Positions 4,160 to 54,874 of a stretch of DNA of 56,143 nt are shown one piece after another. Below the pieces are notes generated by a model. It did not search any database, was not told the DNA's origin, and saw nothing but the letters and a program-made list of their open reading frames with translations. This stretch comes from Terriglobia bacterium. Its GTDB lineage: Bacteria; Acidobacteriota; Terriglobia; Bryobacterales; Bryobacteraceae. The stretch covers positions 1 to 56,143 of the forward strand of contig JANXYJ010000026.1 in the NCBI GenBank assembly GCA_025350105.1. The letters are read 5' to 3'. Every line of letters starts with the position of its first letter. The first letter of the stretch is position 1. The position numbers were made by a program, and so were the translations under genes.

Positions 4160-4245
4160 CCCGTAGCCCTTTCTAAACCGTAGCTCTTTCGAACCCGTAG
4201 CTCTTTCGAACCCGTAGCTCTTGCTAAAGCGTAGCGCTTTTTAAA
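4160..4245. repeat. Five-unit degenerate tandem repeat, about 17 bp per unit
   Basis: Units at 4160-4177, 4178-4193, 4194-4210, 4211-4228 and 4229-4245 follow the pattern CCGTAGCTCTTTCGAA with small changes. Two are identical over 16 bases. They lie 23 bp upstream of the ychF start, on its leader side. AGCTCT/AGAGCT lets each unit form a small hairpin. No known element name fits. Confidence 0.85.
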
Positions 4246-4368
4246 TCCCCTCCAACCGCCGTCTACCTGCCAGGATGTCCTAAAAACACAGCCCGCAACA
4301 AATGTTTGTCAGGATTTCCGCGGCCCGTGTCAGATAAACCCCTACAAGCCACACAAAAAAAAGTACTT

Positions 4369-4383
4369 GTCTCAAAATGAGAC
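4369..4383. promoter_or_regulatory. Perfect dyad GTCTCA-AAA-TGAGAC, putative operator
   Basis: Six-base arms with a 3-base centre, 58 bp upstream of the start of the small two-helix membrane protein. A perfect, closely spaced dyad in a promoter region suggests a site for a dimeric regulator. The regulator is not identifiable from the window. Confidence 0.4.
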
Positions 4384-4441
4384 TTGATTTCTGCTCTGTC
4401 CCCGGATACACTTTCTAAACGATTTAGGAGATTCTGCACAG

Positions 4442-4849
4442 ATGGCATCACCTTCACCCGCCCCAGCAACGCAAGCTGGCCTCGAATACATTCAAAAACA
4501 GGACCATATCTACTTTCGTCAAGCCTGGGTTCACCGCTGGATCAGTTGGATCTGCGGCTGGGGAGCCGGGGTGCTGGCGGCATCTGGAGTGGTAACCCTT
4601 AGTTGGGCTACTAACGATAACCACGCTGTGCCATTCTGGTGTGGCATCGCATCGGCCGGTCTCACCGCCGTCACGCAAACCGTGAAGCCGGACCTGTGGG
4701 CGAACGCCTACTACCGCGGCCATCTGCTGCTGGAACAGGCCATTGGAGATCACGTCCTAGGCAACGCCACCGCAGAGGACCTCATGAATGCCTGGCACCA
4801 GGCCCAAGGGGGCATGCCGGGAGCCATCAGTTCCGCTGGAAAAAACTAG
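4442..4849 (+). CDS. Small two-helix membrane protein, possibly SLATT-like
   Basis: A 135-residue protein with ATG at 4442 and AGGAG 11 bases upstream. After a hydrophilic N-terminus (residues 1-30) come two membrane helices: about 36-56 (WISWICGWGAGVLAASGVV) and 64-81 (AVPFWCGIASAGLTAVTQTV). A polar C-terminal helix with WANAYYRGHLLLEQAIGDHV follows. Two helices joined by a short loop plus a Trp/Tyr/Arg-rich amphipathic C-terminal helix is the layout of SLATT/DUF4231-like 2TM domains. Those are often effectors of nucleotide-signalled immunity, or orphan membrane proteins. No nucleotide cyclase, SLOG or other partner gene is adjacent, so the SLATT link is inference and the function is unknown. 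Confidence 0.6.
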   Translation: MASPSPAPATQAGLEYIQKQDHIYFRQAWVHRWISWICGWGAGVLAASGVVTLSWATNDNHAVPFWCGIASAGLTAVTQTVKPDLWANAYYRGHLLLEQAIGDHVLGNATAEDLMNAWHQAQGGMPGAISSAGKN

Positions 4850-5304
4850 CACCCGGGTTTTTACTGATCCAATCGCTCAACAGCTTTTAGGGGCCGTACT
4901 CACCTCCCGGCCCTCGTTCTTTCGTCAGTCTGCGATTCAACGCCACTGCAACACTGCATTTCCCCACACCTCAACCACTTGTCACGTCCCTTCACCCCGT
5001 AACCTTGGACTGCCCCGTACATTGTGGGCAAGGAGTCCGAGGCGCTCACTTGTCAGAGGGCCTGGATCGACCAACGGCGGTAATACTAGTAAAAATCGCC
5101 GGGGTTTGCGAGTGATGAGCGTCAAGTCGGAACGTGATCCGATCCCTATGCCGCTGCGGGTTACATGCGTGCCGCCCGATGTCGCCGGCGCTAAACAAGC
5201 GGACCTCTTGTGGCACGATGTAGTGCGGCGGGAGGGAGGGCGCCCTTGAAAGAACGTTTCCGATCCGCTACCTAACAGTGCGGTGTTACGTGGCCCGATG
5301 CGAA

Positions 5305-5343
5305 GAGTGTTTACGGGGAGTGTTTGCGAGGAGTCTTAAGGAA
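5305..5343. repeat. 13-bp tandem repeat, about 3 units
   Basis: GAGTGTTTACGGG, GAGTGTTTGCGAG and GAGTCTTAAGGAA lie head to tail. The first two match at 11 of 13 bases and the third is decayed. It is intergenic, about 150 bp upstream of the peptidase start. Confidence 0.7.
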
Positions 5344-5354: not shown

Positions 5355-5382
5355 AATAAGCCGGAAGAAATAAACCGGAAGT
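5355..5382. repeat. 14-bp tandem duplication
   Basis: AATAAGCCGGAAGA is followed directly by AATAAACCGGAAGT (12 of 14 bases identical). It lies just after the 13-bp repeat in the same gap. Confidence 0.75.
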
Positions 5383-9885: not shown

Positions 9886-10347
9886 ATGCGCGTGCTGCTG
9901 GGTTTGCTTTTTGTGCCGGTGGGTTTGATTCCTATGATGACGGGCTGTGGAACGCCGCCGACCGTGGTGAAGGCCGATCCGACGCAGGAGCCCTGGTACG
10001 CTCAGACGGTGGCGCAAGCGGCCGCGATGAATCGTCAGGCGGAGAGTGCTTATAAGACTGGCGATGCGGATAAGGCCGCGGCGTTGATCTTGCAAGGCGA
10101 GCCACTGGTGGCGCGCCTGCTCTCGGTGTCACATCCAACGCTGGAAGCTGCGCAGGCTGCCGGCGACTTGGATCATTTGTATGGGCGCATGCTGTTGGGC
10201 AATCGTCATTACGGGGAAGCGCGTTTGTTGTTTCAGAAAAATTTGGCGCGCTGGCGCAATTGGAATCCACAAAATGAAGACACGCGGCGGCGCTTTCTTC
10301 AAGCTAAGGATGCGATTGCGGAATGCGACCGGCACATCGTTTTCTGA
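9886..10347 (+). CDS. Small TPR-like lipoprotein
   Basis: A 153-residue protein with ATG at 9886. A short hydrophobic signal ends in a lipobox, PMMTGC, at about residues 16-21, so the mature protein is lipid-anchored from Cys21. The remainder is helical, with Ala/Leu spacing (AAAMNRQAESAYKTGDADKAAALILQG, YGRMLLGNRHYGEARLLFQKN) that looks like one or two TPR-like helix pairs. It is divergent from the ABC permease (50 bp). The gene ends exactly where a 15-bp tandem duplication starts. Function not recognised. Confidence 0.75.
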   Translation: MRVLLGLLFVPVGLIPMMTGCGTPPTVVKADPTQEPWYAQTVAQAAAMNRQAESAYKTGDADKAAALILQGEPLVARLLSVSHPTLEAAQAAGDLDHLYGRMLLGNRHYGEARLLFQKNLARWRNWNPQNEDTRRRFLQAKDAIAECDRHIVF

Positions 10348-10374
10348 TGTTTTGGGTTTTGATGTTTTGGGAAT
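10345..10374. repeat. 15-bp tandem duplication starting at a stop codon
   Basis: TGATGTTTTGGGTTT is followed by TGATGTTTTGGGAAT (12 of 15 identical). The first TGA is the stop codon of the lipoprotein gene. Confidence 0.85.
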
Positions 10375-11978: not shown

Positions 11979-12398
11979 ATGGCACAACTAAAAGAGAGCA
12001 AGACCATGCAAAACCTGAAGGACGCTTTCGCGGGCGAGTCCCAGGCGAACCGGCGCTATTTGTACTTCGCGAAACTGGCAGACGTGGAAGGGCATCCCGA
12101 CGTGGCTGGCCTGTTCCGCGATACGGCGGAAGGCGAAACCGGCCACGCGCATGGCCACTTGGACTATATGAAGAAGGTGGGCGATCCGGCAACCGGTCTG
12201 CCTATCGGTCCGACCACCGATAACCTGAAGGCCGCCATCGCCGGCGAAACCCACGAATATACCGATATGTATCCGGGCATGGCGAAGACGGCGCGTGGAG
12301 AAGGCTTCGCGGAAATCGCTGATTGGTTTGAGACTCTGGCCAAGGCCGAAAAATCCCACGCGGGGCGTTTCGCGCAGGGTTTGCAGTCATTGGCCTAG
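11979..12398 (+). CDS. Rubrerythrin (ferritin-like diiron domain only)
   Basis: A 139-residue diiron protein with AAGGAG upstream of ATG 11979. Iron-ligand motifs are spaced as in rubrerythrins: [31 protein letters not shown] and [10 protein letters not shown]. The C-terminal rubredoxin domain of classical rubrerythrin is absent, so electrons must come from another protein. The Fe-S protein encoded next is a natural candidate (inference). Rubrerythrins reduce hydrogen peroxide to water. It is 41 bp downstream of the PerR-like gene. Its last codons (Q-S-L-A-stop) are copied in tandem after the gene. Confidence 0.95.
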
Positions 12399-12425
12399 TC
12401 AGTCATTGGCGTAGTCAGTCATTTG
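12384..12425. repeat. 16-bp tandem repeat containing the rubrerythrin stop codon
   Basis: CAGTCATTGGCCTAGT (last four codons, TAG stop and one base), then CAGTCATTGGCGTAGT, then a partial third unit CAGTCATTTG. The two full units differ at one base. Confidence 0.9.
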
Positions 12426-12451
12426 TTTGAATCGGCGGTTTGAATCGGCAG
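12426..12451. repeat. 13-bp tandem duplication
   Basis: TTTGAATCGGCGG is followed by TTTGAATCGGCAG (12 of 13 identical), immediately after the 16-bp repeat and before the Fe-S gene. Confidence 0.85.
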
Positions 12452-13864: not shown

Positions 13865-14430
13865 AGCCAGTTGAAATTTCCGAAATCAGCAACATCGCCG
13901 AATACGAAGTGGAACGCGAAACACTGCGCCCCAAGATGATTGCGTTGAAGGACCGCCGGCGAGTGCGCGTGGGCGATCATCTGACGTTCCTGTTTGAGAA
14001 TCGGGAAACGGTGCGCTATCAAATTCAGGAAATGATGCGAGTGGAGCGCATTGTAAAGGCGCACGATATTGCGCACGAAGTGGCCACCTATAACGAACTG
14101 GTACCTGGGCAGGGCGAGTTGTGCGCGTCTCTGCTTGTCGAATACGAAACGCCCGCAGAACGCGATGTAAAGTTACGCGAACTGCTGGGATTGGAACATC
14201 ACATCTGGGTTGAGGTGGAAGGCGCGGGCCGGACACCAGCAATCTTCGATGACCGGCAGATTGCCACCGATCGCATTTCGGCGGTGCAATATTTGCGATT
14301 TCGTTTGAGCGAAGCCCAGCGGACAAACTGGTCCAAAGGCGCGGCGGTGGTGAGCGATCATCCCAAGTATCAAGCTGCGCAGCCATTGAACGCAGCCCAG
14401 TTGGTGGAGATTGGGAACGATTTCCGCTAG
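13861..14430 (+). CDS. DUF3501 family protein
   Basis: A 189-residue soluble protein that starts on the stop codon of the Fe-S gene (ATGA overlap), so it is translationally coupled. Features include SNIAEYEVERETLRPKMIALK near the N-terminus, HLTFLFENRETVRYQIQEMMRVERI and a C-terminal AVQYLRFRLSEAQ. This matches DUF3501, whose genes travel with rubrerythrin and the GlpC-like protein. The molecular role is unknown; a part in the peroxide-reducing complex is inferred from linkage. Its stop overlaps the convergent stop of the next gene (14427-14430). Confidence 0.88.
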   Translation: MKPVEISEISNIAEYEVERETLRPKMIALKDRRRVRVGDHLTFLFENRETVRYQIQEMMRVERIVKAHDIAHEVATYNELVPGQGELCASLLVEYETPAERDVKLRELLGLEHHIWVEVEGAGRTPAIFDDRQIATDRISAVQYLRFRLSEAQRTNWSKGAAVVSDHPKYQAAQPLNAAQLVEIGNDFR

Positions 14431-16799
14431 GCGGTTCGTTTTTCGGTGGTTGCCAGAATCACCAACAGCGCCAGCAAATACAGCACTCCGCCGAACAAGA
14501 GCGTTGCCCGCAGGCCGACGTAGATGGCCAGAACAATGGCGCCGCTGGATCCTAATACGCTGGCCGCGGCGTTGAGCGACCAGGCCCACCGCAGGGACAA
14601 GGGATGCAGTTGTTCCAACCGGCGCAGGCCGCTGGGGAACGGGATGCCCATCAGAAATGCAGCGGGCGCGATCAGCAACGCAGTCAGGATCATTTTCGAG
14701 CCGAGAGGCCACGCTGCGGCACCAGCGACGATCGATGGCGCTGCGAAGGCAAGCATCGTTACGGCGACTGCAACGCCCGCCAGGATTGTGATGAGTGACT
14801 GGTCGGTTGCAGCCAGGCGCTTGCTGCAATAGCTGCCAATGCCACTGGCGACGAGCATGGAAAACACGATGACGGTGAGTGCATATGTCGGGTGGCCCAG
14901 CAAGAGAACAAACTTCTGAATCAAGGCCACCTGAATCAGAATGTAGCCCGCACCTAAACAGAGAAAATACAGCAAGAACGCAAAAACGCCTTTTTGTTTA
15001 GGAAGTCTGGTTCCCAGAATCAGGCGAGGGAGGAACAAAATCACGAGCGTCGCGGCCAGGCTCACCAGCATCAAAGCGCCCAACGTTGGCAGTGCGCGAT
15101 TGATCTTATAGTCGGCGCTTTCTTTGTTGGAGTTGGTGAGGAAGCCGATCAGGTCGCGGGGCTGAACGGTGTAGAAGAAGAACGGACGATCATCGTTGAC
15201 GGGCGAAACATCGAACGGATAGATGGCCCAGAACGCGGGCGGGTTGGGGCTGGCTAACAACTGCGCGAAGGGTGTTGTGGGCGGATCGCCAGGAAGATAG
15301 ATGCCTTGGAGTTTGGAATCGATCAACCACTGACGTGCGTTGGCGACGTCCTCCTGGGTAAATGGCCTGCGAGAGATCAGAACGCTATCTTGCGCTCCCC
15401 AGCCGCGGAGCTTCGAGGCATCGTCACGGACCACCATGACGTGTAGCGCGGGCTCTTTTTCTCCCAAGCGCGCCAGGCCATCCATCGCCAGACTGAGCAA
15501 GCGGAGCGACTCGCGCGGAGGATCGAAGCCCCAGCGCGTGAAAGCGATCACGCCGTCATCGGTAAGGTGCGAAAGGTAATCGTAAAAAGCATCGGTGGTG
15601 TAGAGATTGTTTTCGGAAAGCGCAAACGCGCCGGCAGCGGTGGAGGCCCATGTGTCCACGAGCGTAGCCTGAATCACCTGATATTTTTCGCCGCTGCGGC
15701 GCACGAAGCTGCGGCCGTCCTCGACGAACACGCGCACTTCCGGGCGAAAATACAGACGGTGGCTTTGCTGCGCGAATTTCTGGCGCATGATGTTGGTGGC
15801 GATAATGGGATTGATTTCGACGGCGGTGATGTCGCGGCTGCCGGAAGAAAGAGCCCGGCCGACGTCGTAGCCGCCACCGGCGCCAATCACCAAAGTTTTT
15901 GCGCCGGGGCGAAGGAAATAGGGAAAGCCAGGACCTTCGTGCGAAAGCGTTTTACGTTCGTTGGCGGAGAGGTGATCCCAATCCTGGGGCGCGATGGCGG
16001 TGGCGGCATCGGCGTCGATCACAACACTTAAGTAACCGCGATCGCTACTCACGCCCACGCGCGAAAAACTGTTCCACGCGGTGAATTGTTCCGGCGGAAG
16101 CTTCTGTCCCTTGGCGGTGCTGATGTCCAGGAAATGCCAGCGTCCGTTGGCGATCATGAACATCACCATCAGCAAAGAAACGGCAACGGCCATGGCGCGG
16201 CGGCGTTGGCCGCCGGCTTGATGAAACCAGATGGCTGCAGCGATGGCATAGAAGACGCCCGCGGCGATCAGTGTATTGGGGCCGCCGAAGGTATTGAGGA
16301 AGGGGATCAGCACCAGGCAGCCTGCGGCGGCGCCAGCGAGGTCAAAGAAATAGGCGCGGTGAATGCGTTCAATGGCTTCCGAGATCACCAGCGAAATGAC
16401 GGCACCGGCGAGAAAGAAAGGACAGGCGACGATGAAGTAGACGCCAGCGAGCGCGAAGTAGCCGAGATCGGCGGGGGCCCAAAGAACCAGACGAAGGGCG
16501 AGCACAACAACGACGGCGTTCACCAACGCAAGCACGCCTAACTTGGAGTACAAATTGCCGGGCCGTGTGGCGACAACGTAGGAGAAGACGCCGCCGGCTC
16601 CCAGGCCGAACAGCGCGATGGAGATGGCCAGAAACGCAAAGTGGTAATAAAACACAACCGAGAAAATGCGTGTGAGCGAAAGCTCCAGAACCAGCGTGGC
16701 CAAGGTGGTGAACGCCAGGCCAAGGTAGAGCTGGTTCCAGCGGACATGATCGGGCGCGCGCGCAGAGGCGATATGGGGACTGGAAGTGATGCGGGACAA
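14427..16799 (-). CDS. Spermidine-synthase-like membrane protein (SAM-binding domain between membrane domains)
   Basis: About 790 residues. The N-terminal third has roughly seven membrane helices starting LYLGLAFTTLATLVLELSLT. The middle is a spermidine synthase/methyltransferase fold with KTLVIGAGGGYDVGRALSSG and TAVEINPII (nucleotide-binding loop and acidic residue) and FVEDGRSFVRR. The last third has six to seven more helices. Such fused proteins are common in environmental bacteria and are annotated as spermidine synthase-like. Whether they make polyamines is not established. No in-frame ATG exists at the 5' end. TTG 16799 is chosen, TTG 16844 is an alternative, and both have weak ribosome sites. 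It converges with DUF3501. Confidence 0.8.
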   Translation of the reverse strand: MSRITSSPHIASARAPDHVRWNQLYLGLAFTTLATLVLELSLTRIFSVVFYYHFAFLAISIALFGLGAGGVFSYVVATRPGNLYSKLGVLALVNAVVVVLALRLVLWAPADLGYFALAGVYFIVACPFFLAGAVISLVISEAIERIHRAYFFDLAGAAAGCLVLIPFLNTFGGPNTLIAAGVFYAIAAAIWFHQAGGQRRRAMAVAVSLLMVMFMIANGRWHFLDISTAKGQKLPPEQFTAWNSFSRVGVSSDRGYLSVVIDADAATAIAPQDWDHLSANERKTLSHEGPGFPYFLRPGAKTLVIGAGGGYDVGRALSSGSRDITAVEINPIIATNIMRQKFAQQSHRLYFRPEVRVFVEDGRSFVRRSGEKYQVIQATLVDTWASTAAGAFALSENNLYTTDAFYDYLSHLTDDGVIAFTRWGFDPPRESLRLLSLAMDGLARLGEKEPALHVMVVRDDASKLRGWGAQDSVLISRRPFTQEDVANARQWLIDSKLQGIYLPGDPPTTPFAQLLASPNPPAFWAIYPFDVSPVNDDRPFFFYTVQPRDLIGFLTNSNKESADYKINRALPTLGALMLVSLAATLVILFLPRLILGTRLPKQKGVFAFLLYFLCLGAGYILIQVALIQKFVLLLGHPTYALTVIVFSMLVASGIGSYCSKRLAATDQSLITILAGVAVAVTMLAFAAPSIVAGAAAWPLGSKMILTALLIAPAAFLMGIPFPSGLRRLEQLHPLSLRWAWSLNAAASVLGSSGAIVLAIYVGLRATLLFGGVLYLLALLVILATTEKRTA

Positions 16800-16871
16800 T
16801 CTTCTACTGTAGCAAGGTGCTTGCGTGCAAACATAAACAACCAATTGTGTTGAAATACGTCTAGGAGAGCT

Positions 16872-17951: not shown

Positions 17952-20012
17952 CTACATCATCGCTGCGGGTGGCGCGGGATCGTGCGGATTGCCGGCGTTT
18001 GAAAATGGCAGGCGGATCATCACGAAGGCGAGCAGGGCCAGAACCACTAGGCCTGCGGTGTACGATCCGTCCTTGAAGATGTGGGGAAGGTCTTTGTCGA
18101 AGAATTTCCCAGTGGCCACCAGCAAGCCCATCAGCGCTTCGCCGGCGATCAGACCGCTGGCGATGAGGATGCCCACGCTATCGACGCGGGTTCGCTGACC
18201 TTCGTTGAAGGCGGCGCGCTTGCACATTGTGTCGGAGGCCCAGCGGATCAGCCCGCCGCAGAAAATTGCAAACGTGGTGGCAAAGGGCAAATACATTCCC
18301 ACTGCCACCAGCATGGGGCTGCGGACTTTGATCATGATCATCGCCACACCGAAGAGTGCGCCGGTTACGACGAGAGGCCAGGGCATTTCACCGCCGACGA
18401 TGCCTTGCGCGAGTGCCGCCATCAGGCCCGCTTGTGGTGCAGGCAGCGCGGCATCACCAAAACCAGTGCCGCCGCCCTTGATGTTTGCGACGTGAAGAAT
18501 GTAGAGCGGGAAGTACATAACGAGGCTGGACAAGACCACGGAAATGAGTTCGACAATCTGAATGGTGCGCGGCGTGCCGCCTAAGATGTAGCCGGCTTTA
18601 AAGTCTTGCAGCAGTTCACCGGCGACGGCGGATGAAACGCAGACCACCGCGGCCACGCCCAGCACGACGGCGACGCCTTTGGCTCCCGACATTCCAAGTG
18701 ACACCATTAATAACGCCGCGATGATGAGCGTGGAAAGCGTCAGGCCGGAAATGGGATTGTTCGAGGAACCGATCATGCCGACCAGATTCCCCGACGCGGT
18801 GGCGAAGAAGAAGCCCACGATGATCATCACCACTGCTGCGACTACACCTGCCAGAACGTTGCCTGAAAAGTAAATGTACAAACCGACCATCAAAACGAAC
18901 ATGACGCCGATCAGGCCGAAGACCACCTTGGAACCCATGTAGCGTTCGGTGCGCGCCATGGAAGCGAGCGACGGTTGGCCTTGCCGCACTTCGGCGAGAG
19001 CACGGCCGATGCTGGATGTCAGATTCTTGCGCATGCGAAACAGAGTGTTGGCCGCGCCCACCATCATGCCGCCCACGGCGATAGGGCGGACGATGTAGCG
19101 CCAAACGGCTGCTGCTTGTGTGGCCCAGTCGTTGTCACTGGGCCCGGTTGCGTTGGTGGGCATGAATTGCTGCAGGCTGGGTCCCAGAAAGAACAGCATC
19201 AAGGGCACCAGCAGGCCCCAAGCCAGCACGCCGCCGGAAAATTGCAGTGCGGCAAGTTCCGGGCCGATCACATAGCCGACACCTAAGTAAGCCGGACTGA
19301 TGGTAGGCGCGGCGACGACGGAGACGGCTCCGGTCTGCAAAACATTTTTGCTCCCCAGCGGACCCAGCCGTACGATACTTTTGCCCAGTTGGCCCACGCG
19401 CATGAAAATGTTCTGGTCGGCGGCGAACAAGCGCATTTCGCCCAGCGCGTAAACCAGCGCGCCCAGGCCGATGTTCCAGAACAAATAGCGCGCTGCTTCG
19501 GCGCCGCGGCGTCCCGCTTTGTGAATCTCCGATGCGGCGACGGATTCGGGGAAGGGAAGGTCGGGGTCCTCCACCATGGAGCGCCGGACAAGGGATACAA
19601 ATAGTACGCCCAAAATTCCGCCCACTACCATCAACGCCGTGGATTTCCAGTAAGCCACGGAGGGATCGAACGATGCCCAGGAGCCGGCGATCAGAAAAGC
19701 CGGCATGGTGAAAATGGCCCCGGCCGCGACCGATTCACCGATGGACCCGGCAGTGCGCGCCAGGTTTTCCTCCAGAATGGTGCCCTTCCAGATGCGCAGT
19801 ACCGCCATTCCGATTACAGCCGCTGGGTAGGTGGCAGCGATTGTAATGCCAGCACGAAGGCCAAGGTAAGCATTGGCGGCACCCAGGACGACCGACATCA
19901 CCAAACCAAGGAGCACGGCACGCAGCGTGAACTCCTTCATATTGGAATTTTCAGGTACGAAGGGAATGTGCCGGCGGGGCGCGCCCGGCGGAGTGCTGTT
20001 GGGTTGGCTCAT
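17952..20012 (-). CDS. OPT-family oligopeptide transporter
   Basis: A 686-residue inner-membrane protein with about 15-16 hydrophobic segments. N-terminal FTLRAVLLGLVMSVVLGAANAYLGLRAG is the OPT start motif. Others are TAGSIGESVAAGAIFTMPAF, the NPISG motif in GSSNNPISGLTLS, and CKRAAFNEGQRTRVDSVGILIASGLIAGEALMGL near the C-terminus. The bacterial branch is proton-coupled and thought to import oligopeptides or metal chelates; the substrate is not predictable. ATG at 20012. A 12-bp tandem duplication lies 22 bp upstream of its start. It converges with the DUF2911 pair, 9 bp apart. Confidence 0.93.
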   Translation of the reverse strand: MSQPNSTPPGAPRRHIPFVPENSNMKEFTLRAVLLGLVMSVVLGAANAYLGLRAGITIAATYPAAVIGMAVLRIWKGTILEENLARTAGSIGESVAAGAIFTMPAFLIAGSWASFDPSVAYWKSTALMVVGGILGVLFVSLVRRSMVEDPDLPFPESVAASEIHKAGRRGAEAARYLFWNIGLGALVYALGEMRLFAADQNIFMRVGQLGKSIVRLGPLGSKNVLQTGAVSVVAAPTISPAYLGVGYVIGPELAALQFSGGVLAWGLLVPLMLFFLGPSLQQFMPTNATGPSDNDWATQAAAVWRYIVRPIAVGGMMVGAANTLFRMRKNLTSSIGRALAEVRQGQPSLASMARTERYMGSKVVFGLIGVMFVLMVGLYIYFSGNVLAGVVAAVVMIIVGFFFATASGNLVGMIGSSNNPISGLTLSTLIIAALLMVSLGMSGAKGVAVVLGVAAVVCVSSAVAGELLQDFKAGYILGGTPRTIQIVELISVVLSSLVMYFPLYILHVANIKGGGTGFGDAALPAPQAGLMAALAQGIVGGEMPWPLVVTGALFGVAMIMIKVRSPMLVAVGMYLPFATTFAIFCGGLIRWASDTMCKRAAFNEGQRTRVDSVGILIASGLIAGEALMGLLVATGKFFDKDLPHIFKDGSYTAGLVVLALLAFVMIRLPFSNAGNPHDPAPPAAMM

Positions 20013-20328
20013 GAAAAAGTTAGCTCAGCTTTTCTTTATACGAGTCTTTATACGAGTCTGTATGCCGGGCGCCGGTTCATGGGGCGATGACAGGTCCCGT
20101 TCGCATGATGATAACACCGATTGGCTCTGCCTCCGTTCAAGTTGTTATGCGGGCTGGGCGTTCCATTACGTCTTTTTCATGCAAAAAAAACGCCAAAAAC
20201 GCCAGTGAAACTGCATCGAATGCGTGTATGATGTCATCTATAAGCGCGATGTGAATTTGCCAGCGTGGAACCTACGCTTGCCAAGTGATTGAGCGCATTT
20301 GACGAGAAAAATCGAGACCCAATAGTAT
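20013..20328. other. Divergent intergenic gap between OPT and DUF4126 genes
   Basis: A gap of 316 bases. It contains the 12-bp repeat at 20034-20064 and an A-run with a short repeat of AACGCC (about 20180-20205). A TATAAG near 20238-20245 could be the -10 of the DUF4126 gene, but no clear -35 goes with it. No gene seen. Confidence 0.5.
20034..20064. repeat. 12-bp tandem repeat in the OPT gene leader
   Basis: CTTTATACGAGT occurs twice without mismatch (20034-20045, 20046-20057), followed by a decayed partial unit CTGTATG. It lies 22 bp before the OPT start on the minus strand. Confidence 0.85.
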
Positions 20329-20931: not shown

Positions 20932-20983
20932 GCAGGCGCCGTGCAGGCTGCGAGTTGGTGCGCGGAGTGGAGCAGGTTTGAGT

Positions 20984-21009
20984 GGGTGCACTATATGGGT
21001 GCACTATAA
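20984..21009. repeat. 13-bp tandem duplication carrying a -10 element
   Basis: GGGTGCACTATAT is followed by GGGTGCACTATAA (12 of 13 identical). The second copy continues into TATAAT (21005-21010), a perfect -10, upstream of the gene at 21071. The first copy carries the near-match TATATG. Confidence 0.85.
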
Positions 21010-21070: not shown

Positions 21071-21646
21071 ATGAAGTTGGTTCGAGTAATGATGTTGATG
21101 GCCGCGATATTGGTAGCGGCGACAAACGTGATGACGGCGGCTCCGCAAGCTGCTGCAGCCAAGGCGAGCGCGCCCAGCGATAGCGACATTGCCGCGGCGA
21201 AAGCCAGAGGCATGGTGTGGGTGAATACGGAGTCCAAGGTCTATCACAAAGAAGGGCGCTACTTTGGTCATACCAAACAAGGCCAGTTCATGAGCGAAGC
21301 GGATGCGCAGAAGATGGGCGCCCGCGAAGCGAAATCAGAAATTGGTGAAAAAGGAAGCAAGGCAGTAAAGGCGGCGCCGGCTGCGGCAGCGGCTCCGGCG
21401 GCTGCAGCTGCAAAGTCGGCTCCCGCTGCGGCCCCGGCCGCTGTGACTCCGGCGAAAGCCGCAGTTCCGGCCACTGCGGCGGCAACTCCCGCTGTTGGCG
21501 ATGCCAAGGAAGACGTAAAGAAGGCGACCAAGCGTACCCGCAAGAAAGCCGAAGAAACCGTGGATACGAAATCGGAGGCAGCGACGGAAGAGCCCACGAC
21601 TGCCAAGAAGAAGCGTAAGAAGAAGACTGAAGAAGAGGATAAATAA
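21071..21646 (+). CDS. Exported protein with Ala/Pro- and Lys-rich histone-like tail
   Basis: A 191-residue protein, ATG 21071 after AAGGAGGA. Signal-like N-terminus to about residue 30. Residues 47-82 form a compact domain, VWVNTESKVYHKEGRYFGHTK followed by QGQFMSEADAQKMGARE. It resembles the small His/Tyr-rich modules often seen alone in acidobacterial exported proteins. From residue 95 on the protein is Ala/Pro-rich, then turns strongly basic and acidic (KKATKRTRKKAEE..., KKKRKKKTEEEDK), as in H1-like tails. The basic tail might bind DNA, RNA or polyanions. With a signal sequence an extracytoplasmic site is more likely. Function unknown. Confidence 0.7.
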   Translation: MKLVRVMMLMAAILVAATNVMTAAPQAAAAKASAPSDSDIAAAKARGMVWVNTESKVYHKEGRYFGHTKQGQFMSEADAQKMGAREAKSEIGEKGSKAVKAAPAAAAAPAAAAAKSAPAAAPAAVTPAKAAVPATAAATPAVGDAKEDVKKATKRTRKKAEETVDTKSEAATEEPTTAKKKRKKKTEEEDK

Positions 21647-37721: not shown

Positions 37722-37726
37722 CGGGC

Positions 37727-37770
37727 GATCCTCGTCGTTCGATCCGTCGTCGTTCGATCCGTCATCGTTC
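37727..37770. repeat. 15-bp tandem repeat (3 units) spanning the gatC stop and the gatC-gatA gap
   Basis: Units GATCCTCGTCGTTC (14 bp), GATCCGTCGTCGTTC and GATCCGTCATCGTTC on the plus strand. On the coding strand the first unit is GAACGATGACGGATC, which holds the last codons and TGA of gatC. The later copies have CGA in place of TGA. The array fills the gap to gatA. Confidence 0.92.
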
Positions 37771-38052
37771 GATGACCAGGGGAACTTTGTAGTAGCCGCC
37801 GCTGGTGACCGGCGCGTTGGCCACGGCATCGGCGTTGGATAGCGGCGTGCGTTCCACATCGGCGCGCAATGTTTCTCCCGCAGAAAACACTTGGGCCATC
37901 GGCTCCACATTGGATGTATCCAACTCGTTCAGCTTATCAACGTGCAGGAGAATGCCGTCCAGGTCGCGCGTCATGCGGACCACTTCATCATCACGCAAGG
38001 CAAGGTTGGCCAACTCGGCCACTCGCCGAACTTCTTGTTCGGTGAGCTTCAC
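37762..38052 (-). CDS. gatC: Glutamyl-tRNA(Gln) amidotransferase subunit C
   Basis: A 96-residue protein with GTG start at 38052: [77 protein letters not shown]. This is full-length GatC, which stabilises the GatA-GatB interface. Start overlaps the stop of the upstream DUF721 gene (GTGA). Together with gatA it forms the indirect Gln-tRNA route. Confidence 0.95.
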
Positions 38053-46604: not shown

Positions 46605-47324
46605 ATGCGCAATCTGGTACTGGCGACGGGTTTGGTTCTTTCATGTGGGGTAGTCTTCGGGCAGGCGATGTCTGATTCCGGGGCCGTAGCCGCTGGTTCT
46701 ACCGTGGGTGGAGCTGCCGGCAAACCGGTGAGCAACGCTCTTAGCGGTGCACTGCGTGGTGTGGACAAGGCTACCGCTGACGCCGCACAAACAGCTGAAA
46801 AGGCGCAAGAAACCTTGGTTAAAGAACCCTTGGTGAAGGAAACCCCACTGGAAGTGGTGCCAGCCGTGCACGCCTCCGACTTACCGCACGCCCCCGCTGG
46901 CAGCGCAAACAAGGCGTTGCCCAGCTTCAAGGCTCTTACGGCCGGGACCAAGCGGGAAGGTAAAGGGGAAAAATTGCCCGTCCCAGCGCCGGGTGAAAAG
47001 AACAAAGAATTTGATTCCGCTCCGGTGATCGAATCGCTGTTCGAGTTGCCTTCACTTCCCGAAGAATTCATGCCCAAAGGCGATCTGGCGAAGGTTCTGC
47101 CGACCACGCCGCTGGCGCCTCCTCCGGTGATGACGGCCGTAAGCTTCAATAACATTACCTCCGGCATGAGCCGTTCGGAATTGTTGCGCCTGGGTGCGCC
47201 GCAATTCAAAGTAACCATGGACGAAGATGGCCATCTGGCGGAGCTGTACAGCTATGCGCAAGAAGGTCAACGCGTGGGCTCGGTGAAATTATTGGATGGG
47301 GCGGTGGCGGTCATCCGCCGCTAG
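46605..47324 (+). CDS. Exported protein with a BamE/SmpA-like C-terminal motif
   Basis: A 239-residue protein, ATG 46605 after GGAGG (GTG at 46602 possible). The signal peptide ends at VVFGQ (about 19). The middle (20-170) is Ala/Ser/Pro/Lys-rich and probably unstructured. The last 60 residues (FNNITSGMSRSELLRLGAPQFKVTMDEDGHLAELYSYAQEG...) resemble the BamE/SmpA pattern GMsrseVlrlLGxP followed by a two-strand unit. The role is unknown; a surface or periplasmic accessory protein is inferred. Stand-alone gene. Confidence 0.7.
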   Translation: MRNLVLATGLVLSCGVVFGQAMSDSGAVAAGSTVGGAAGKPVSNALSGALRGVDKATADAAQTAEKAQETLVKEPLVKETPLEVVPAVHASDLPHAPAGSANKALPSFKALTAGTKREGKGEKLPVPAPGEKNKEFDSAPVIESLFELPSLPEEFMPKGDLAKVLPTTPLAPPPVMTAVSFNNITSGMSRSELLRLGAPQFKVTMDEDGHLAELYSYAQEGQRVGSVKLLDGAVAVIRR

Positions 47325-48181: not shown

Positions 48182-49282
48182 ATGAATGCTCCCGCCGATC
48201 TCTTGAAGACGCCGCTCAACGGCGTCCACCGCGCGCTGGGCGCGAAAATGGTCGACTTCGGCGGTTGGGACATGCCGGTCGAATACTCCAGCCTGATCGA
48301 GGAGCACTGCGCCGTCCGCCAGCGCGTCGGCGTGTTCGACGTCAGCCACATGGGCGAGATCGAAGTGCGTGGCCCGCAGGCGCTGGCGCTGGTGCAGCAC
48401 GTCACCGTGAACGATGCGTCGAAGCTGGCCATAGGGCAGGCCCAGTACTCGGCGCTGCTCTACGATCATGGTGGTTTTGTCGACGACATCCTGGTCCACA
48501 AAGTTGCCGATGATGAGTACTTTCTTTGCGTTAACGCATCGAACCAGGACAAGGACTTCGCGCACATTACCGAACACAATCCTTTCCAGGCGACGGTGGA
48601 AAACGCAGGCCCAAAATACGCTCAAATCGCAGTGCAAGGACAACTCGCAAAAAATACACTCAATAAATTGCTTACACCTGAGTTATTGCACACAAAGCGC
48701 TATCATTTTCTGGACGGGAGCATCGCCGGTGTGCCAGCCAGAATTGCCCGCACCGGCTACACGGGCGAAGACGGTTGGGAGCTGTATCTGGCACCCGAGA
48801 ACGCTGTTCATCTCTGGCAGGAGATCCTGACCGCCGGCACCGAGTTCGGTATTCTTCCCTGTGGGCTTGGCGCGCGCAACACGCTGCGCATGGAGGCGGC
48901 TATGCCTCTTTACGGGCACGAAATTCACGCTTCGATCTCGCCCTGGGAAGCGGGCTTGGATTGGATCGTGAAACTCGATAAAGGCTACTTTATCGGGCGC
49001 GAGTCGTTGATACAACAAAAACAGAAGGGCATCACCCGAAAATTGACTGGGTTTGAAATCATCGGCCGCGGCATCGGCCGCGATGGTTATGAGATTCAGG
49101 TTGGTGGCGTGGGCGCGGGCTGGGTGACCAGCGGCGGGCCGTCACCCACTTTAAATAAGAATATTGGGATGTGTTATATGCCGAACAATATCGCGCTAGG
49201 CACGGCAATCGAAGTCATGGTCCGAGGCAGGGGAGTAGCCGCGCAAACGGTTCCCCTTCCCTTTTACAAGCGAGCCAAATAA
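48182..49282 (+). CDS. gcvT: Aminomethyltransferase, glycine cleavage T protein
   Basis: A 366-residue folate enzyme: LKTPLNGVHRALGAKMVDFGGWDMPVEYSS, RVGVFDVSHMGEIEVRG, RIARTGYTGEDGWELY, and FGILPCGLGARNTLRMEAAMPLYGHEI. The Asp of the active site (VFDVSHMGE) is present. It transfers the aminomethyl group to tetrahydrofolate, releasing ammonia. ATG 48182. Codons 140-160 (about 48600-48690) are notably AT-rich compared with the rest of the gene. It is followed 11 bp later by gcvH; gcvP genes are not in the window. Confidence 0.96.
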   Translation: MNAPADLLKTPLNGVHRALGAKMVDFGGWDMPVEYSSLIEEHCAVRQRVGVFDVSHMGEIEVRGPQALALVQHVTVNDASKLAIGQAQYSALLYDHGGFVDDILVHKVADDEYFLCVNASNQDKDFAHITEHNPFQATVENAGPKYAQIAVQGQLAKNTLNKLLTPELLHTKRYHFLDGSIAGVPARIARTGYTGEDGWELYLAPENAVHLWQEILTAGTEFGILPCGLGARNTLRMEAAMPLYGHEIHASISPWEAGLDWIVKLDKGYFIGRESLIQQKQKGITRKLTGFEIIGRGIGRDGYEIQVGGVGAGWVTSGGPSPTLNKNIGMCYMPNNIALGTAIEVMVRGRGVAAQTVPLPFYKRAK

Positions 49283-49677: not shown

Positions 49678-49682
49678 GTTAC

Positions 49683-49722
49683 TTTTCAGCCCACTTGCGT
49701 TCTATTTTTCAGCCCACTCGCG
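49683..49722. repeat. 17-bp direct repeat (period 23 bp) at the end of the hypothetical gene
   Basis: TTTTCAGCCCACTTGCG (49683-49699) and TTTTCAGCCCACTCGCG (49706-49722) differ at one base. On the minus strand the second copy contains codons for EWAEK and the TAG stop; the first is a copy downstream of the stop, out of frame. Confidence 0.88.
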
Positions 49723-50301
49723 CTCCAGCATCCGTGAATATTCGCCCGACGCGTAAATGTCGAAGTCGAAGCCGATGTCGTTGATATCGGCAAACGTAGT
49801 CTCACCCTGCCGCACCATGAACAACTGATCGGCGTAGCGATAATAATTACGGATAAAATCGTTGGTGAGCGAGGCCCGTTCTGGCGCCGCTCCCAACATC
49901 GCGCTTAATCCTAGGGCCCGCGAAAAGATCGCTTTGAAATCCGCCACGCCCCACTTGCGCAGTTTCGCTTGCACCGGCGCGGGAGTCTGATTCACCAGGT
50001 ACGCCGCGAAGCTTTGCCGCTTGATCGCCATCCCCGAAAACTCAGGTGTGCGCTCCACCAGCTCCATGCACTGATCGATCCAGCGCACCAAATCTTTCCC
50101 TACATAGAACAGCATGCGGATTTCGCAGAACCGCCCGTCCAGCAGCGCGCGTTCCAATTCTTCCGCGCTCTTTTCGCCGGTGGGCAGCAGCCCCTGCAGC
50201 ATCAGGTTGGCGCGTGAACTCTCCACCAACCGGTCCGGACCGCCACTGTCGGCGAATGGGTGGAGAATCAAGGGGGGTAACTTGCGAGTCATCGTCTTCA
50301 T
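49702..50301 (-). CDS. Hypothetical protein, helical, 199 residues
   Basis: ATG 50301 (MKTMTRKLPPLILHPFADSGG). The rest is alpha-helical, with RLVESSRANLMLQGLLPTGEKSAEELERALLDGRF, EIRMLFYVGKDLVRWIDQCMELVERTPEF and FIRNYYRYADQLFMVRQGE. No signal peptide, no membrane helix, no motif I recognise. It is convergent with gcvH. Its last codons are repeated after the stop. Function unknown. Confidence 0.7.
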   Translation of the reverse strand: MKTMTRKLPPLILHPFADSGGPDRLVESSRANLMLQGLLPTGEKSAEELERALLDGRFCEIRMLFYVGKDLVRWIDQCMELVERTPEFSGMAIKRQSFAAYLVNQTPAPVQAKLRKWGVADFKAIFSRALGLSAMLGAAPERASLTNDFIRNYYRYADQLFMVRQGETTFADINDIGFDFDIYASGEYSRMLEREWAEK

Positions 50302-52198: not shown

Positions 52199-52237
52199 AT
52201 GAGACACGCCTTTCGCTCTCTTTGGCAAACGTCGGAG

Positions 52238-53209
52238 CTACTTCTTGGCCTTCAAACTCGGAATCTCCACCACGCAGCACTTGTCGTCTTCTTTGGCGGC
52301 CTTCGCCGGAATCAGCGTCGCCGCGGCTTTGGGCTCGGCAGCTTTGTGATCGAGTTCAATTTGAATCAACTGCGACAGCACTTCCCATTGCAGCGCGCCT
52401 TCAATCTTGCGTCCATTGATGAACAAGGTCGGCGTCGCGCTCACTTGCAGATCGTGACCCAGCATCATCGATTTCTCCACCTCGGCGGCGGCGCTCTTGT
52501 CAGCCATGCAGGCGCTCACATCCACCTTGTTTTGCTTGGCGAATTCGCCCACCTTCGCATCTAAGTTTTCCAGCGTAATCTCGTTCTGCTTCTGATACAC
52601 CCAATCGTGATAGTCCCAGAATGCTTTTTCGCTATTGCGATACATGCAGCGCGCCGCGATCGATCCCTTCATGGCCCAGGGGTGAATCGACGTCAGCGGA
52701 AAATCGTAAAAATACACCCGAACTTTTTCTCCGAACGCCGCCGGAACATTTTTCCGTAAATCCTGCTCTTCTTTTTGACAAACCGGACATTGGAAATCGC
52801 CAAACACAGCCAGCGTCACCGGAGCCCCCGCCGCGGCGCCGAAAGCTGGTTGTTTATCGGTCTTCAATGCCTCAACGTTGGTTTGGAACGGGCTGCGGGT
52901 GACGTCGTAGGCTGTGCCTTTCACAATATTGCGGCCGTCTTTGGAAACGAAATAGGCTTCGTCTTTGGTGGAGCCGTTATAGGTGAGGTGCACGTTCACA
53001 TCGAAAAAATCGCGCATGGTGGCGGACGGCTTGGGGTCGTCAATCTTCACCGTCACCTGTGGAATCCACAATTCGGAGTAGCGCAGATACGCTTCCAGGT
53101 ACGCCTTGTCCAGCGCCGATTGCGCCAGCGGCTTGGGTTGTGCGTTCAGCGCGATCCCGCACGCCACGGTCAGCAGAGCCATCCATCTAATGACATTCAT
53201 GATTTTCAT
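52238..53209 (-). CDS. Exported DsbA/DsbG-like thiol oxidoreductase
   Basis: A 323-residue protein with signal peptide to ALNAQ. Residues 130-290 form a thioredoxin-fold DsbA domain: VAVFGDFQCPVCQKEEQDL with CPVC at 141-144, the insertion helix region WDYHDWVYQKQNEI and the cis-Pro loop SATPTLFINGRKI. The N-terminal 120 residues are an extra domain. A CC pair occurs near the C-terminus (DDKCCVVE), possibly a metal or redox site. CPVC suits a disulfide reductase, isomerase or vitamin-K-partnered oxidase; the exact role is open. It ends 40 bp before the M28 gene on the same strand. Confidence 0.9.
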   Translation of the reverse strand: MKIMNVIRWMALLTVACGIALNAQPKPLAQSALDKAYLEAYLRYSELWIPQVTVKIDDPKPSATMRDFFDVNVHLTYNGSTKDEAYFVSKDGRNIVKGTAYDVTRSPFQTNVEALKTDKQPAFGAAAGAPVTLAVFGDFQCPVCQKEEQDLRKNVPAAFGEKVRVYFYDFPLTSIHPWAMKGSIAARCMYRNSEKAFWDYHDWVYQKQNEITLENLDAKVGEFAKQNKVDVSACMADKSAAAEVEKSMMLGHDLQVSATPTLFINGRKIEGALQWEVLSQLIQIELDHKAAEPKAAATLIPAKAAKEDDKCCVVEIPSLKAKK

Positions 53210-53254
53210 AACGATTCCATTCTTGCTCAGCGTTGTCGGGCGTCAGGTTTTTCA

Positions 53255-54874
53255 TTGCAAACCCGCTACGAACCCCTCGACGAACATTATACTGAAGACT
53301 TGTCATCTGAGAACACGGCTGGCGAGAACACGGCTGGTGAGAACCGTGCCAGACGGAACCCGGCGCTGTCCAAGCTCATCGGCGTTTTGATTGCGGTTTT
53401 GGCCATTCTGTTTCTGGCGAACTTGAGCAACGTTGGTTTTTTGGGACCCGACGAACCGCGCTACGCCTCCATTGGCCGCGAAATGGCGCGTTCGGGCGAT
53501 TGGATTACGCCGCGGCTGGACGGCAAGCCCTGGTTCGAAAAACCTCCTTTGACCTACTGGCTGACTGCGCTCGGTCACCTGTCCCATTTGACGGACGAAA
53601 ACGCCGCACGGTTGCCTCAGGTGCTGCTCAGTTTGGCATTCCTGTTTTTTTTCTATCGAACGTTGGCAGCGGAGTTTTCGCGGCGCATCGCAACCGTCGC
53701 GGTCTCGATCCTCGCCACATCCGTCGGTTGGATGGCCTACAGCTTCGTCGGATTGACCGATCTGCCGATGTCGGTCACCTTGGCTGCGGCGATGCTATTG
53801 GCGCTGACAAAAAACTGGGACAGAAGCTACGCGAACTGGATCGCGGGCGGATTGCTGGGGTTATCCTTTCTAGCCAAAGGTTTTGTGCCCATGGTGCTAT
53901 TTGCGCCAGTACTGCTGCTGCTGGTGATACGCGGCCCCAAAAACCCAGAGCAACTGCCAGTTGCTCTAGGTTTTTCGAGCGGACTCCGCCTGGCCGCCGG
54001 CGCCCTTATCGTCGCCGCCCCCTGGGTGGTTCTGTGCTGGCTGCGCAACGGCCAAGCTTTTTGGGACGACTTCTTCTGGAAGCAGCACATCGCCCGCTTC
54101 TACTCGCCGACATTGGAGCACGTCCAGCCCTTCTGGTACTACGTTCCGGTGCTCTTGGCTGGCTTGTTTCCCTGGACGCCGTTGGTCGCTTTGCTGGCCA
54201 ATCGCAAACTCTTTCTCGACGTGCGGATCCGCTTTCTGGCCGGTTGGGTTTTGTACGGATTCATCTTCTTTTCCGCCGCGCGCAACAAACTCCCGGGCTA
54301 TCTTCTGCCCCTCGTGCCCGCCATCGCGGTTCTCCTGGCAATTGCGCTTGAACAGTCCATCGGCAAAGGTAGAAGAGCCGCTGTCTGCCTGGTACTCAGC
54401 GCACTTCTGTTGATTCTCCTGCCGGCCGCCGCAGATGTGTTGCCGCTGGCGCTGGTGACCGGCATCCGGCGAGCGGACCTGACATTCGCTCCCCATAGCC
54501 TTATCTTCGCCGCGATCTTCGTTGTAATTGCCTCGGCCGTTGGATGGTTGGCGGCGAAACAGCGCTTTTTGAACGCGATCGAATGTCTCAGCCTGGCCAC
54601 CACCACCGTCATCCTCTATCTAATGTTCACCGTGCTTCCGGTTTTGGACCGCAACTATTCGGTCCGAGGGTTCTATCGCGAGGCACCGGATGCGGTTTCG
54701 GAAGCGTGCCTGGATCACGTGAACCGCGCCTGGGAGTATGGTCTGAATTATTACGCGGGGCATCCGCTGCCGCAATGCGGCGCCGGCCAGGTTGCCAAGG
54801 GGCGTATCATAGTGAAAGATCGCGTGAAAGATCGCATGCAAGATCGCCGGCTGGCTTTCGCTGCGCAGAAGTAG
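53255..54874 (+). CDS. Glycosyltransferase family 39 membrane protein (ArnT-like), non-ATG start
   Basis: About 540 residues with 11-12 hydrophobic segments. The GT39/PMT signature is near the start: NVGFLGPDEPRYASIGREMARSGDWITPRLDGKPWFEKPPLTYWLTAL, in which the DEPRY acidic pair is catalytic in ArnT-like enzymes. It transfers a sugar from a polyprenyl phosphate donor to a lipid or protein. No ATG precedes the core; TTG 53255 or TTG 53300 are the only options, so the 5' end is uncertain. Both ends carry in-frame tandem repeats (ENTAG units near the N-terminus, VKDR units at the C-terminus), and a REP-like palindrome lies inside (53939-53975). Confidence 0.87.
   Translation: MQTRYEPLDEHYTEDLSSENTAGENTAGENRARRNPALSKLIGVLIAVLAILFLANLSNVGFLGPDEPRYASIGREMARSGDWITPRLDGKPWFEKPPLTYWLTALGHLSHLTDENAARLPQVLLSLAFLFFFYRTLAAEFSRRIATVAVSILATSVGWMAYSFVGLTDLPMSVTLAAAMLLALTKNWDRSYANWIAGGLLGLSFLAKGFVPMVLFAPVLLLLVIRGPKNPEQLPVALGFSSGLRLAAGALIVAAPWVVLCWLRNGQAFWDDFFWKQHIARFYSPTLEHVQPFWYYVPVLLAGLFPWTPLVALLANRKLFLDVRIRFLAGWVLYGFIFFSAARNKLPGYLLPLVPAIAVLLAIALEQSIGKGRRAAVCLVLSALLLILLPAAADVLPLALVTGIRRADLTFAPHSLIFAAIFVVIASAVGWLAAKQRFLNAIECLSLATTTVILYLMFTVLPVLDRNYSVRGFYREAPDAVSEACLDHVNRAWEYGLNYYAGHPLPQCGAGQVAKGRIIVKDRVKDRMQDRRLAFAAQK
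53309..53353. repeat. 15-bp in-frame tandem repeat (3 units) at the GT39 N-terminus
   Basis: GAGAACACGGCTGGC, GAGAACACGGCTGGT and GAGAACCGTGCCAGA encode ENTAG, ENTAG and ENRAR. The first two differ at one base; the third is partly decayed. Confidence 0.92.
53939..53975. repeat. Long in-frame palindrome inside the GT39 gene (REP-like copy 2)
   Basis: AAAAACC, C, AGAGCAACT, GCC, AGTTGCTCT, A, GGTTTTT: 9-bp perfect inner stem and 7-bp outer stem with one mismatch. It codes for NPEQLPVALGF in frame. The inner GAGCAACTGCCAGTTGCTC is identical to the palindrome at 47456-47474. Confidence 0.85.
54812..54847. repeat. 12-bp in-frame tandem repeat (3 units) at the GT39 C-terminus
   Basis: GTGAAAGATCGC twice without mismatch, then ATGCAAGATCGC. 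They encode VKDR, VKDR and MQDR, ten codons before the stop. Confidence 0.92.

Follow-up and report, generated by a model that had tools for sequence, protein, structure and literature searches.

Short tandem microduplications across a Bryobacteraceae-type genome: a probable lineage-specific duplication process under selective filtering

The genome of a Terriglobia bacterium (GCA_025350105.1; here G000) carries, in the portion sampled, well over a hundred short head-to-tail arrays, neither peculiar to the 56,143-nucleotide stretch analyzed here (the window) nor limited to gene borders. We consider it likely that the arrays stem from microduplication that is particular to this lineage, acts on the whole genome and has its products filtered by selection. 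Under this proposal, short stretches, mostly of 11–18 bp and most often of 15 bp, would be duplicated head to tail chromosome-wide at an unusually high rate; some of the duplicated pairs would later acquire further copies and diverge; and selection would eliminate nearly all frame-shifting and most in-frame duplications, so that the survivors would lie in gaps, over start and stop codons, in the loose tails of proteins and at protein sites that tolerate them.

A sequence-only reading of the window had listed 16 such arrays, and 15 of these hold when TRF and an ungapped detector are taken together, the exception being 32788–32829, with a best ungapped score of 5, which is at most a diverged repeat. 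TRF at score 30 finds 14 of the 16 (that at 10345 only as period 7–8) and the ungapped detector at score 11 finds 13; the array at 22084–22123 is detectable only with gaps, and that at 49683–49722 is found by the ungapped detector and missed by TRF. The detector discards arrays with a sub-period of 1–9; most counts cover periods 10–25, with one extended to period 40, and score thresholds of 11, 12 and 13 were used in different counts. At a score of at least 11, the window contains 16 arrays (a different set from the 16 of the earlier reading) against a mean of 0.3 and a maximum of 2 in 20 dinucleotide shuffles, and at score 12 it contains 12 arrays against 0.05. The window is unexceptional within G000 (12 arrays against 11.1 expected), and across the genome sample 134 arrays were detected against 1–4 in five codon-matched shuffles, in which the base content of gaps was kept and their dinucleotide content was not. 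The excess over codon-matched sequence is large; its absence would have refuted the earlier reading. No Rfam family matched the window above the gathering score. The arrays do not fall into the microsatellite class (units of 1–6 bp), given that the counted excess lies at 10–18 bp, sub-periods of 1–9 having been removed by the detector.

Most of the arrays in the window lie between genes or at their ends, with the caveat that gene borders were called with our own codon-usage gene finder and are therefore approximate, above all at starts. Five copies of a 17-bp unit (4161–4245) are located in intergenic DNA 23 bases before the start of a gene for a YchF-like GTPase (3034–4137, minus strand); this unit has no other site in G000 within two mismatches. 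Three further arrays precede or reach gene starts, namely those at 20033–20063 (period 12, 2.6 copies; 20 bases before the OPT transporter gene 17952–20012, minus strand), 36233–36271 (period 15, with a perfect core at 36236–36265; 14 bases before the superoxide dismutase gene 35610–36221, minus strand) and 31154–31190 (period 19, perfect), which reaches into the start codon of the gene for a PLP-dependent enzyme (31189–32133). At stop ends, a 12-base direct repeat with a lag of 15 (10345–10371) has its first copy opened by the stop codon of 9886–10347, an array of period 16 and 2.5 copies (12384–12423) spans the stop codon of a rubrerythrin-like gene (11979–12398), three copies of period 15 (37726–37773) span the stop end of the called gene 37762–38052 (minus strand), and a 17-base direct repeat with a lag of 23 (49683–49722) spans that of 49702–50301 (minus strand). 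The arrays at 5301–5334 (period 13, 2.6 copies), 12425–12449 (period 13, perfect) and 20983–21008 (period 13, two perfect copies) are intergenic, as are, by the gene calls, those at 5355–5381 (period 14, 1.9 copies; score 10, under the detector threshold) and 22082–22121 (gapped, period 13–14). The gene 53255–54874 is associated with two forward-strand arrays: three copies of period 12 encode the peptide VKDR in its C-terminal tail (54812–54847), and an array of period 15 encoding ENTAG (53309–53344) lies upstream of the region shared by the best matches in relatives, which begins at residues 41–49. The start codon being uncertain, the latter array could be either leader or N-terminal tail.

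The earlier statement that no array lies in the middle of a gene is accurate only as regards the window's strong arrays; at score 11, three weaker forward-strand arrays, none of them on the earlier list, are internal. Two of these are one of period 12 (49060–49082) within 48182–49282, 200 bases from the stop, and one of period 15 (46807–46841) within 46605–47324. The third, of period 18 (21371–21408, within 21071–21646), is low-complexity and GC-rich and may reflect plain codon bias. In the genome sample, moreover, 57 of the 134 arrays are wholly inside genes, and 30 are at least 100 bases from both gene ends. The border pattern itself is real, with 72 of 134 arrays within 60 bases of a border compared to 21% of random 40-base segments, but the arrays are not confined there.

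The distribution within genes bears the mark of a reading-frame filter. Unit lengths are divisible by three in 56 of the 57 arrays inside genes, as opposed to 34 of 73 outside, and arrays are not equally dense in coding DNA (98.6 per Mb) and noncoding DNA (726 per Mb), an equality that would have refuted the sequence-only reading. Because nearly all coding units are multiples of three, in-frame arrays stand at about 29%, and out-of-frame arrays at 0.4%, of the noncoding density. Thus, the earlier idea of a process that escapes selection only at gene edges captures the removal of duplications from genes and misses the in-frame arrays found throughout them, which are in excess in the last 60 bases of genes (17 against 3.4–4.7 expected) and little so in the first 60 (7 against the same expectation). 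The mild excess of multiples of three among noncoding units (p 0.013) is perhaps due to missed genes. Separately, five candidate places of hidden gene splitting by out-of-frame arrays were noted and left unchanged. The frame bias also bears on whether the arrays are an assembly or sequencing artefact, a concern prompted by the draft state of G000 (206 contigs) and by the proneness of tandem repeats to assembly error, as described in the accessible part of PMC6868369. An artefact would ignore reading frame; given, in addition, the substitutions between copies and the similar unit sizes in three other genomes, we regard this explanation as scarcely conceivable.

Could the arrays instead be retained for tuning expression or protein ends? 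Beyond the overall clustering at borders, gap arrays lie within 30 bases of a border in 39% of cases against 24% (16–34%) expected, a modest preference that the proposed filter does not account for, and 19 of 71 gap-centered arrays cross a border against 13.3 (sd 3.3) expected. However, little of the border excess is left when gap length is taken into account; the units are mostly unrelated; 30 of the 134 arrays lie deep in genes; and the promoter-bearing divergent gaps hold 17 arrays against 22.4 expected (co-directional gaps, 46 against 37.9; convergent gaps, 8 against 10.7), which lends no support to the earlier reading's alternative of expression tuning. Retention for tuning is accordingly very improbable in our estimation, and the border pattern is probably for the most part attributable to filtering by selection.

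Comparison across genomes indicates that the trait is limited to some species of one genus. G000 contains 179 arrays per Mb in 671,806 unmasked bases, compared to 10.6 per Mb in a baseline of 17 genomes from its genus, a set chosen once the densities were known; masked bases were excluded from the base counts of this comparison and from none of the earlier ones. The count drew on 22 same-genus relatives minus G009 and G018, which were unsampled, and on 13 genomes of other genera, in a group that holds 14, two further, wholly masked pieces having been dropped. Three other genomes of the genus are raised, namely G012 (127 per Mb), G003 (95) and G002 (62), these densities resting on 8, 8 and 5 arrays, respectively, so that the raised species exceed the genus baseline 6- to 17-fold; G011, of the same genus, is clearly not raised. 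A set of 24 public loci from other bacteria and near relatives shows 19.9 arrays per Mb. Within G000, the arrays are spread slightly unevenly over 45 genome pieces (chi-square 61.7 on 44 degrees of freedom). The nearest genomes compared are only about 65–70% identical over long matches of a 7.9-kb stretch of the window.

Two rival explanations bear on this pattern. An ordinary duplication rate combined with weak selection in the lineage (small population, drift) would be consistent with the long branches of G000 and G012 in both trees and with their G+C content, lower than in most of the sampled genus. Yet the frame filter is very strong, and gaps, which are free of coding selection, still carry 726 arrays per Mb against 17–20 in G011; relaxed selection is therefore improbable, and we infer that the rate of duplication, beyond retention, is raised. 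The other explanation, in which DNA mismatch repair or single-strand exonucleases would have been lost, has some initial appeal: no MutS1 match exceeded the cut-off in G000, G010 and G002, and density is highest in G000. MutS1 absence does not track raised density, however, given that G012 and G003 keep MutS1 and are raised, whereas it is missing from G069 (1 array in 43 kb) and G174 (0 in 60 kb), neither of which is raised; mismatch-repair loss was rejected as the cause on these grounds. Moreover, anmK, the neighbor of mutS, is also missing in all five MutS1-lacking genomes examined for it, which points to a piece missing from the assemblies, and MutL, RecJ, the ExoVII large subunit and Pol I, complete with a 5′–3′ exonuclease domain, were all found in G000. 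Mismatch repair, besides, handles loops of a few bases. We give repair-gene loss only a very slender chance. A lack of the Pol I 3′–5′ exonuclease was likewise set aside: the domain has no Pfam match in G000 and none in the baseline genome G011 either.

The units of perfect arrays fall in a narrow size window. Perfect arrays of at least two copies number 3, 3, 17, 3, 7, 30, 4, 3 and 6 at periods 10 to 18, with the mode at 15, none at periods 19–28 and one at 29; at periods 7 and 8 they are not above chance, and at 9 they equal the scaled G011 count. In G012, G003 and G002, 18 of 23 arrays have periods of 12–20, sizes like those in G000. Between arrays the units are mostly unrelated (comparing units of equal length yields 5 similar pairs for the 134 arrays), so that no single sequence family shared by many sites, of the TAACTGA or REP type, was detected. 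The copies are less uniform than the earlier reading had supposed: mean identity is 0.92–0.95 and perfect arrays make up just 38 of 113, so many arrays are not young. The process itself may still be active.

One candidate for the birth of the arrays is an elevated rate, in this lineage, of classical replication slippage between short direct repeats, with the nascent strand slipping back about 15 nt onto chance microhomology. Among all 72 perfect arrays of two to fewer than three copies, the mean extra match is 3.5 bases, with at least 3 bases in 33 against 3.7 expected, and the Borg arrays discussed below are likewise marked by flanking partial repeats, according to the accessible part of PMC9879509. 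Slippage would also account for the 53 of 113 arrays with three or more copies and for the longer-period arrays, most of them imperfect, that were recovered at score 13 with periods up to 40 (31 of 131 exceed 18). Nevertheless, once arrays with decayed extra copies are removed, the homology signal drops to 7 of 29 sharing at least 3 bases (1.5 expected), three of the seven being possible third copies, and 13 of these 29 clean arrays share no base beyond the copies (16.3 expected by chance). Furthermore, perfect arrays show no excess at 7–9 bp and only one case above 18 bp, sizes at which slippage should also act, and folding is less stable in 80-base windows on arrays than in other gaps, an observation on which hairpins, too, were rejected. 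Given the poor fit of ordinary slippage to the narrow perfect-unit size and the apparently scarce junction homology, we give it appreciable but less than even weight.

We slightly favor, over slippage between microhomologies, a birth step in which a staggered break or displaced end spanning about 15 nt would be copied on its two sides and then joined without homology, copy number changing afterwards by ordinary slippage or unequal exchange; in view of the seven clean arrays with shared bases, some homology may be used. A Ku protein is present over the cut-off in G000, the only genome in which it was sought, and its gene adjoins a LigD-type gene whose phosphoesterase domain is over the cut-off and whose ligase domain is cut by the locus end. 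Among eight array proteins with a homolog spanning the array, five show, in half or more of their matches, a gap there that is at least roughly one unit long, and three show none; one of the five is clean, with LVLRR present twice in G000 and as a single diverged unit in G012, and the others lie in poorly aligned parts. In five more proteins the array is outside the aligned part. A bolder version, which we think rather unlikely, holds that some species possess a duplicating system, heritable and active, whose molecular ruler would be an enzyme or else a staggered break or flap of fixed reach. It would copy 11–18 bp (mode 15) head to tail at any place on the chromosome with no need of homology, continually lengthening gaps and protein tails, and would have been gained or lost within one Bryobacteraceae-type genus.

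Two possible sequence signatures were considered and discarded. A bias toward G/T-rich unit starts and A/C-rich ends, noticed post hoc in 32 perfect pairs of four genomes (z 3.6) and in 54 pairs with at most one mismatch (z 3.0), was rejected as unproven, with z of −0.3 and 0.8 in 117 arrays set aside for testing, where phase is less well defined. A base restricted to G/T four bases past the second copy in 18 pairs has no mirror on the other side, weakens to 39 of 54 pairs in the larger set and was taken as chance.

Tandem microduplication yields small insertions, and in bacteria what causes it at the molecular level can seldom be told apart from background. The 6- to 17-fold rise within one genus, together with the sharp size window of perfect units, should make a causal gene mappable by comparing raised with baseline genomes. 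The process would also illustrate how microduplication adds gaps, shifts stop codons and gives rise to repetitive tails on proteins.

Among known systems, the bacterial VNTRs or minisatellites and prokaryotic satellites, so far as the accessible part of PMC6749651 describes them, share short tandem units that are often multiples of three in genes. The same source reports 42 satellites on the large chromosome of Leptospira interrogans, the intergenic ones mostly in shared families, and 35–406 per genome in Methanosarcina, both under a definition other than ours; in G000, by contrast, arrays number about 179 per Mb and their units are mostly unrelated. The counts are not directly comparable. The intergenic TAACTGA repeats of Beggiatoaceae, in the part of PMC4679880 available, are likewise numerous direct repeats between the genes of a single bacterial lineage but consist of one shared motif. 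Fill-in of staggered breaks followed by Ku-dependent joining, as portrayed in the available portion of PMC8355091, likewise produces local head-to-tail copies, which in that system are mostly free of microhomology, and Ku is found here; that work, however, concerns induced breaks with longer overhangs (43 bp and more) in mouse and human cells, and the source of breaks here is hypothetical. The closest known phenomenon is the tandem repeats of archaeal Borgs, as presented in the accessible part of PMC9879509, so that the earlier remark that no named element has these properties is right for an element and overlooks a close precedent for the phenomenon. The Borg repeats differ in that perfect arrays here are almost only of 10–18 bp, compared to examples of 18–36 nt, and are found on a bacterial chromosome, that copies here are mostly two or three and imperfect, that the Borg rule (perfect, at least 3 units, at least 50 nt) selects only 7.4 arrays per Mb here (5 in 679 kb), where Borgs average 46 per 829 kb, and that there is no marked A-bias here (0.245 in gap arrays, 0.232 in gaps). 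In both cases, the arrays are pervasive and genome-specific, with mostly unrelated units and flanking partial repeats, occur in gaps and genes, have in-gene unit lengths divisible by three, and are almost missing from some close relatives in the present case and from the host in that of Borgs. The arrays of this lineage can thus be viewed as a chromosomal counterpart, in a bacterium, to the Borg repeats.

The short tandem duplications (arrays) of the window belong to a phenomenon that runs through the sampled part of the G000 genome. Fifteen of the 16 arrays listed in the sequence-only reading are recovered by TRF (14) and an ungapped detector (13) combined, and one fails. At a detector score of 11 the window holds 16 arrays as against 0.3 in dinucleotide shuffles (n = 20), and at score 12 it holds 12 as against 0.05 (n = 20). 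The strongest array consists of five 17-bp units (4161-4245) directly before the gene of a YchF-like GTPase; with up to two mismatches, this unit has no second site anywhere in G000. The window is one entire contig, C172, of the assembly (4.74 Mb, 206 contigs, 96.5% complete), and its density is ordinary for the genome (12 arrays, 11.1 expected). Together with 44 further pieces it makes up a sample of 678,648 bases (671,806 unmasked), which at score 12 contains 134 arrays in total, compared with only 1-4 in each of five codon-matched shuffles, a clear excess over codon-matched sequence; the distribution over the pieces is slightly uneven (chi-square 61.7, 44 df).

The nearest named relatives, as judged from a single scan with the SoxC (sulfite dehydrogenase) protein, are a Lake Baikal Bryobacterales MAG (72% identity) and an Acidobacteria MAG (71%), which makes G000 probably a Bryobacteraceae-type acidobacterium. 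DNA identity to same-genus genomes is about 65-70% over long matches of a 7.9-kb stretch of the window, and intergenic gaps are therefore not alignable between species. Densities are compared at score 13 and periods 10-25. G000 reaches 179 per Mb, with 120 arrays counted over 671,806 unmasked bases, and raised densities are also seen in its same-genus relatives G012 (8 in 63,166 bases), G003 (8 in 84,500) and G002 (5 in 80,000). The genus baseline of 17 genomes, comprising G010 (3 in 76,032), G011 (2 in 399,900), G006 (0 in 40,000) and 14 remaining members pooled (4 in 331,477), amounts to 9 arrays in 847,409 bases, or 10.6 per Mb. Ratios to this baseline are 16.8 for G000, 11.9 for G012, 8.9 for G003 and 5.9 for G002, with Poisson P from 3e-100 to 0.002, the baseline having been picked after the densities were known and P being uncorrected for this choice. 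Under the same settings, 13 genomes of other genera yield 6 arrays in 269,775 bases (22 per Mb) and 50 kb of E. coli none; 24 public loci yield 7 in 351,595 (19.9 per Mb). One locus from another family (L153, genome G040) carries two 22-bp arrays with a common core within one 20-kb piece, a shared-unit repeat unlike the G000 arrays.

Phylogenies of Pol I (13 rows) and the protein encoded at 14430-16844 (18 rows) place the raised species in a single part of the genus, where the pair G006-G011 sits among them; neither tree fixes the branching order. G022, which lies beside G003, shows no arrays in a sample of 18 kb that is too small for a verdict. The history of the trait may comprise either one gain and a loss or several gains.

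The sequence-only reading had noticed no array in mid-gene and proposed escape from selection only at gene edges, or a role in tuning expression. In the G000 sample at score 12, 57 of the 134 arrays lie completely within genes, a density of 98.6 per Mb of coding sequence; 73 have under half of their length in genes, which gives 726 per Mb of noncoding sequence, and four are intermediate. Density inside genes is thus far from equal to that outside, and arrays inside genes are nonetheless common. What genes tolerate is governed by frame: units are divisible by three in 56/57 arrays in genes vs 34/73 outside. Relative to noncoding DNA, in-frame units occur at 29% density and out-of-frame units at 0.4%, a value that gene splitting by the gene finder can lower by masking such insertions, the candidate places being only five arrays. 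Coding arrays are concentrated in the final 60 b before gene ends (17, with 3.4-4.7 expected) and, more weakly, the first 60 b (7). Among gap arrays, 39% lie within 30 b of a border (24% expected, 16-34%), and 19 of 71 gap-centred arrays cross one (13.3 expected, sd 3.3). The border pattern thus mostly reflects short gaps (median 90 b) and tolerance in tails, with a modest remainder. The orientation of array-bearing gaps in the sample gives no promoter preference, which argues against expression tuning.

For the product of gene 53255-54874, the best matches in 21 of 22 relatives start at residues 41-49 and stop at 509-532 (G018 has just a distant match); of its two arrays, that at residues 19-30 therefore lies outside the shared part and that at 520-531 at its ragged end. 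Among 56 array proteins, 13 have a homologue in the compared relatives, which spans the array in eight; in five of these a gap falls at the array in at least half of the matches. One is a clean case, LVLRR being present twice in G000 vs a single diverged unit in G012, and the other four align poorly at the array. Several 18-bp coding arrays of G000 encode similar (V/I)WGT-type hexapeptides in 3' parts of genes, and these could be one protein repeat family instead of new duplications.

Perfect arrays of at least two copies in G000 have periods of 10-18 with a peak at 15; periods 7 and 8 are at chance level, 9 equals the scaled G011 count, and 19-28 are empty, with a single array at 29. G011 has no perfect array with a period above 10. 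Noncoding arrays (score 12, searched range 10-25) span periods 11 to 25 and also have their mode at 15, so reading frame alone does not set unit size. Extending the search at score 13 to period 40 yields 131 arrays, of which 31 have periods above 18, including 15 at 27, 30, 33 or 36; for these longer ones 13 net matching bases suffice, and they may be less than full copies. In G012, G003 and G002 together, 18 of 23 arrays have periods of 12-20.

As to cause, none of the candidates mismatch repair, RecJ, ExoVII and Pol I accounts for the arrays. Both mutS1 and its neighbour anmK are missing from the G000 assembly, as from those of G010, G002, G069 and G174; a missing stretch of assembly is more likely than true loss, odd as five of five is. 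A search in G000 also found Ku adjoining, on opposite strands, a LigD-type gene with a 3'-phosphoesterase domain (contig C187, locus L174). Junction homology is scant in perfect arrays of 2 to <3 copies once those with decayed extra copies are excluded, being absent in 13/29 (16.3 expected) and reaching at least three shared bases in 7/29 (1.5 expected); without the decayed-copy filter the latter figure is 33/72 (3.7 expected). We lean slightly towards birth of the duplications by fill-in and then joining of staggered ends, for which there is a precedent in mammals (PMC8355091), over the slippage-type process suggested earlier; slippage or unequal exchange would account for later changes in copy number.

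No publication title among the matches listed concerned tandem duplications of this kind in Acidobacteria, the search covering little of the subscription literature; the Solibacter genome paper applied tandem-repeat programs. The closest known phenomenon that we found is the repeats of Borgs. Perfect long arrays are a feature of Borgs, whereas G000 has just five in 679 kb, and the A-bias of Borg repeats is not common to the G000 arrays; the two nevertheless share mostly unrelated units, the frame rule, genome specificity and partial repeats at the flanks.
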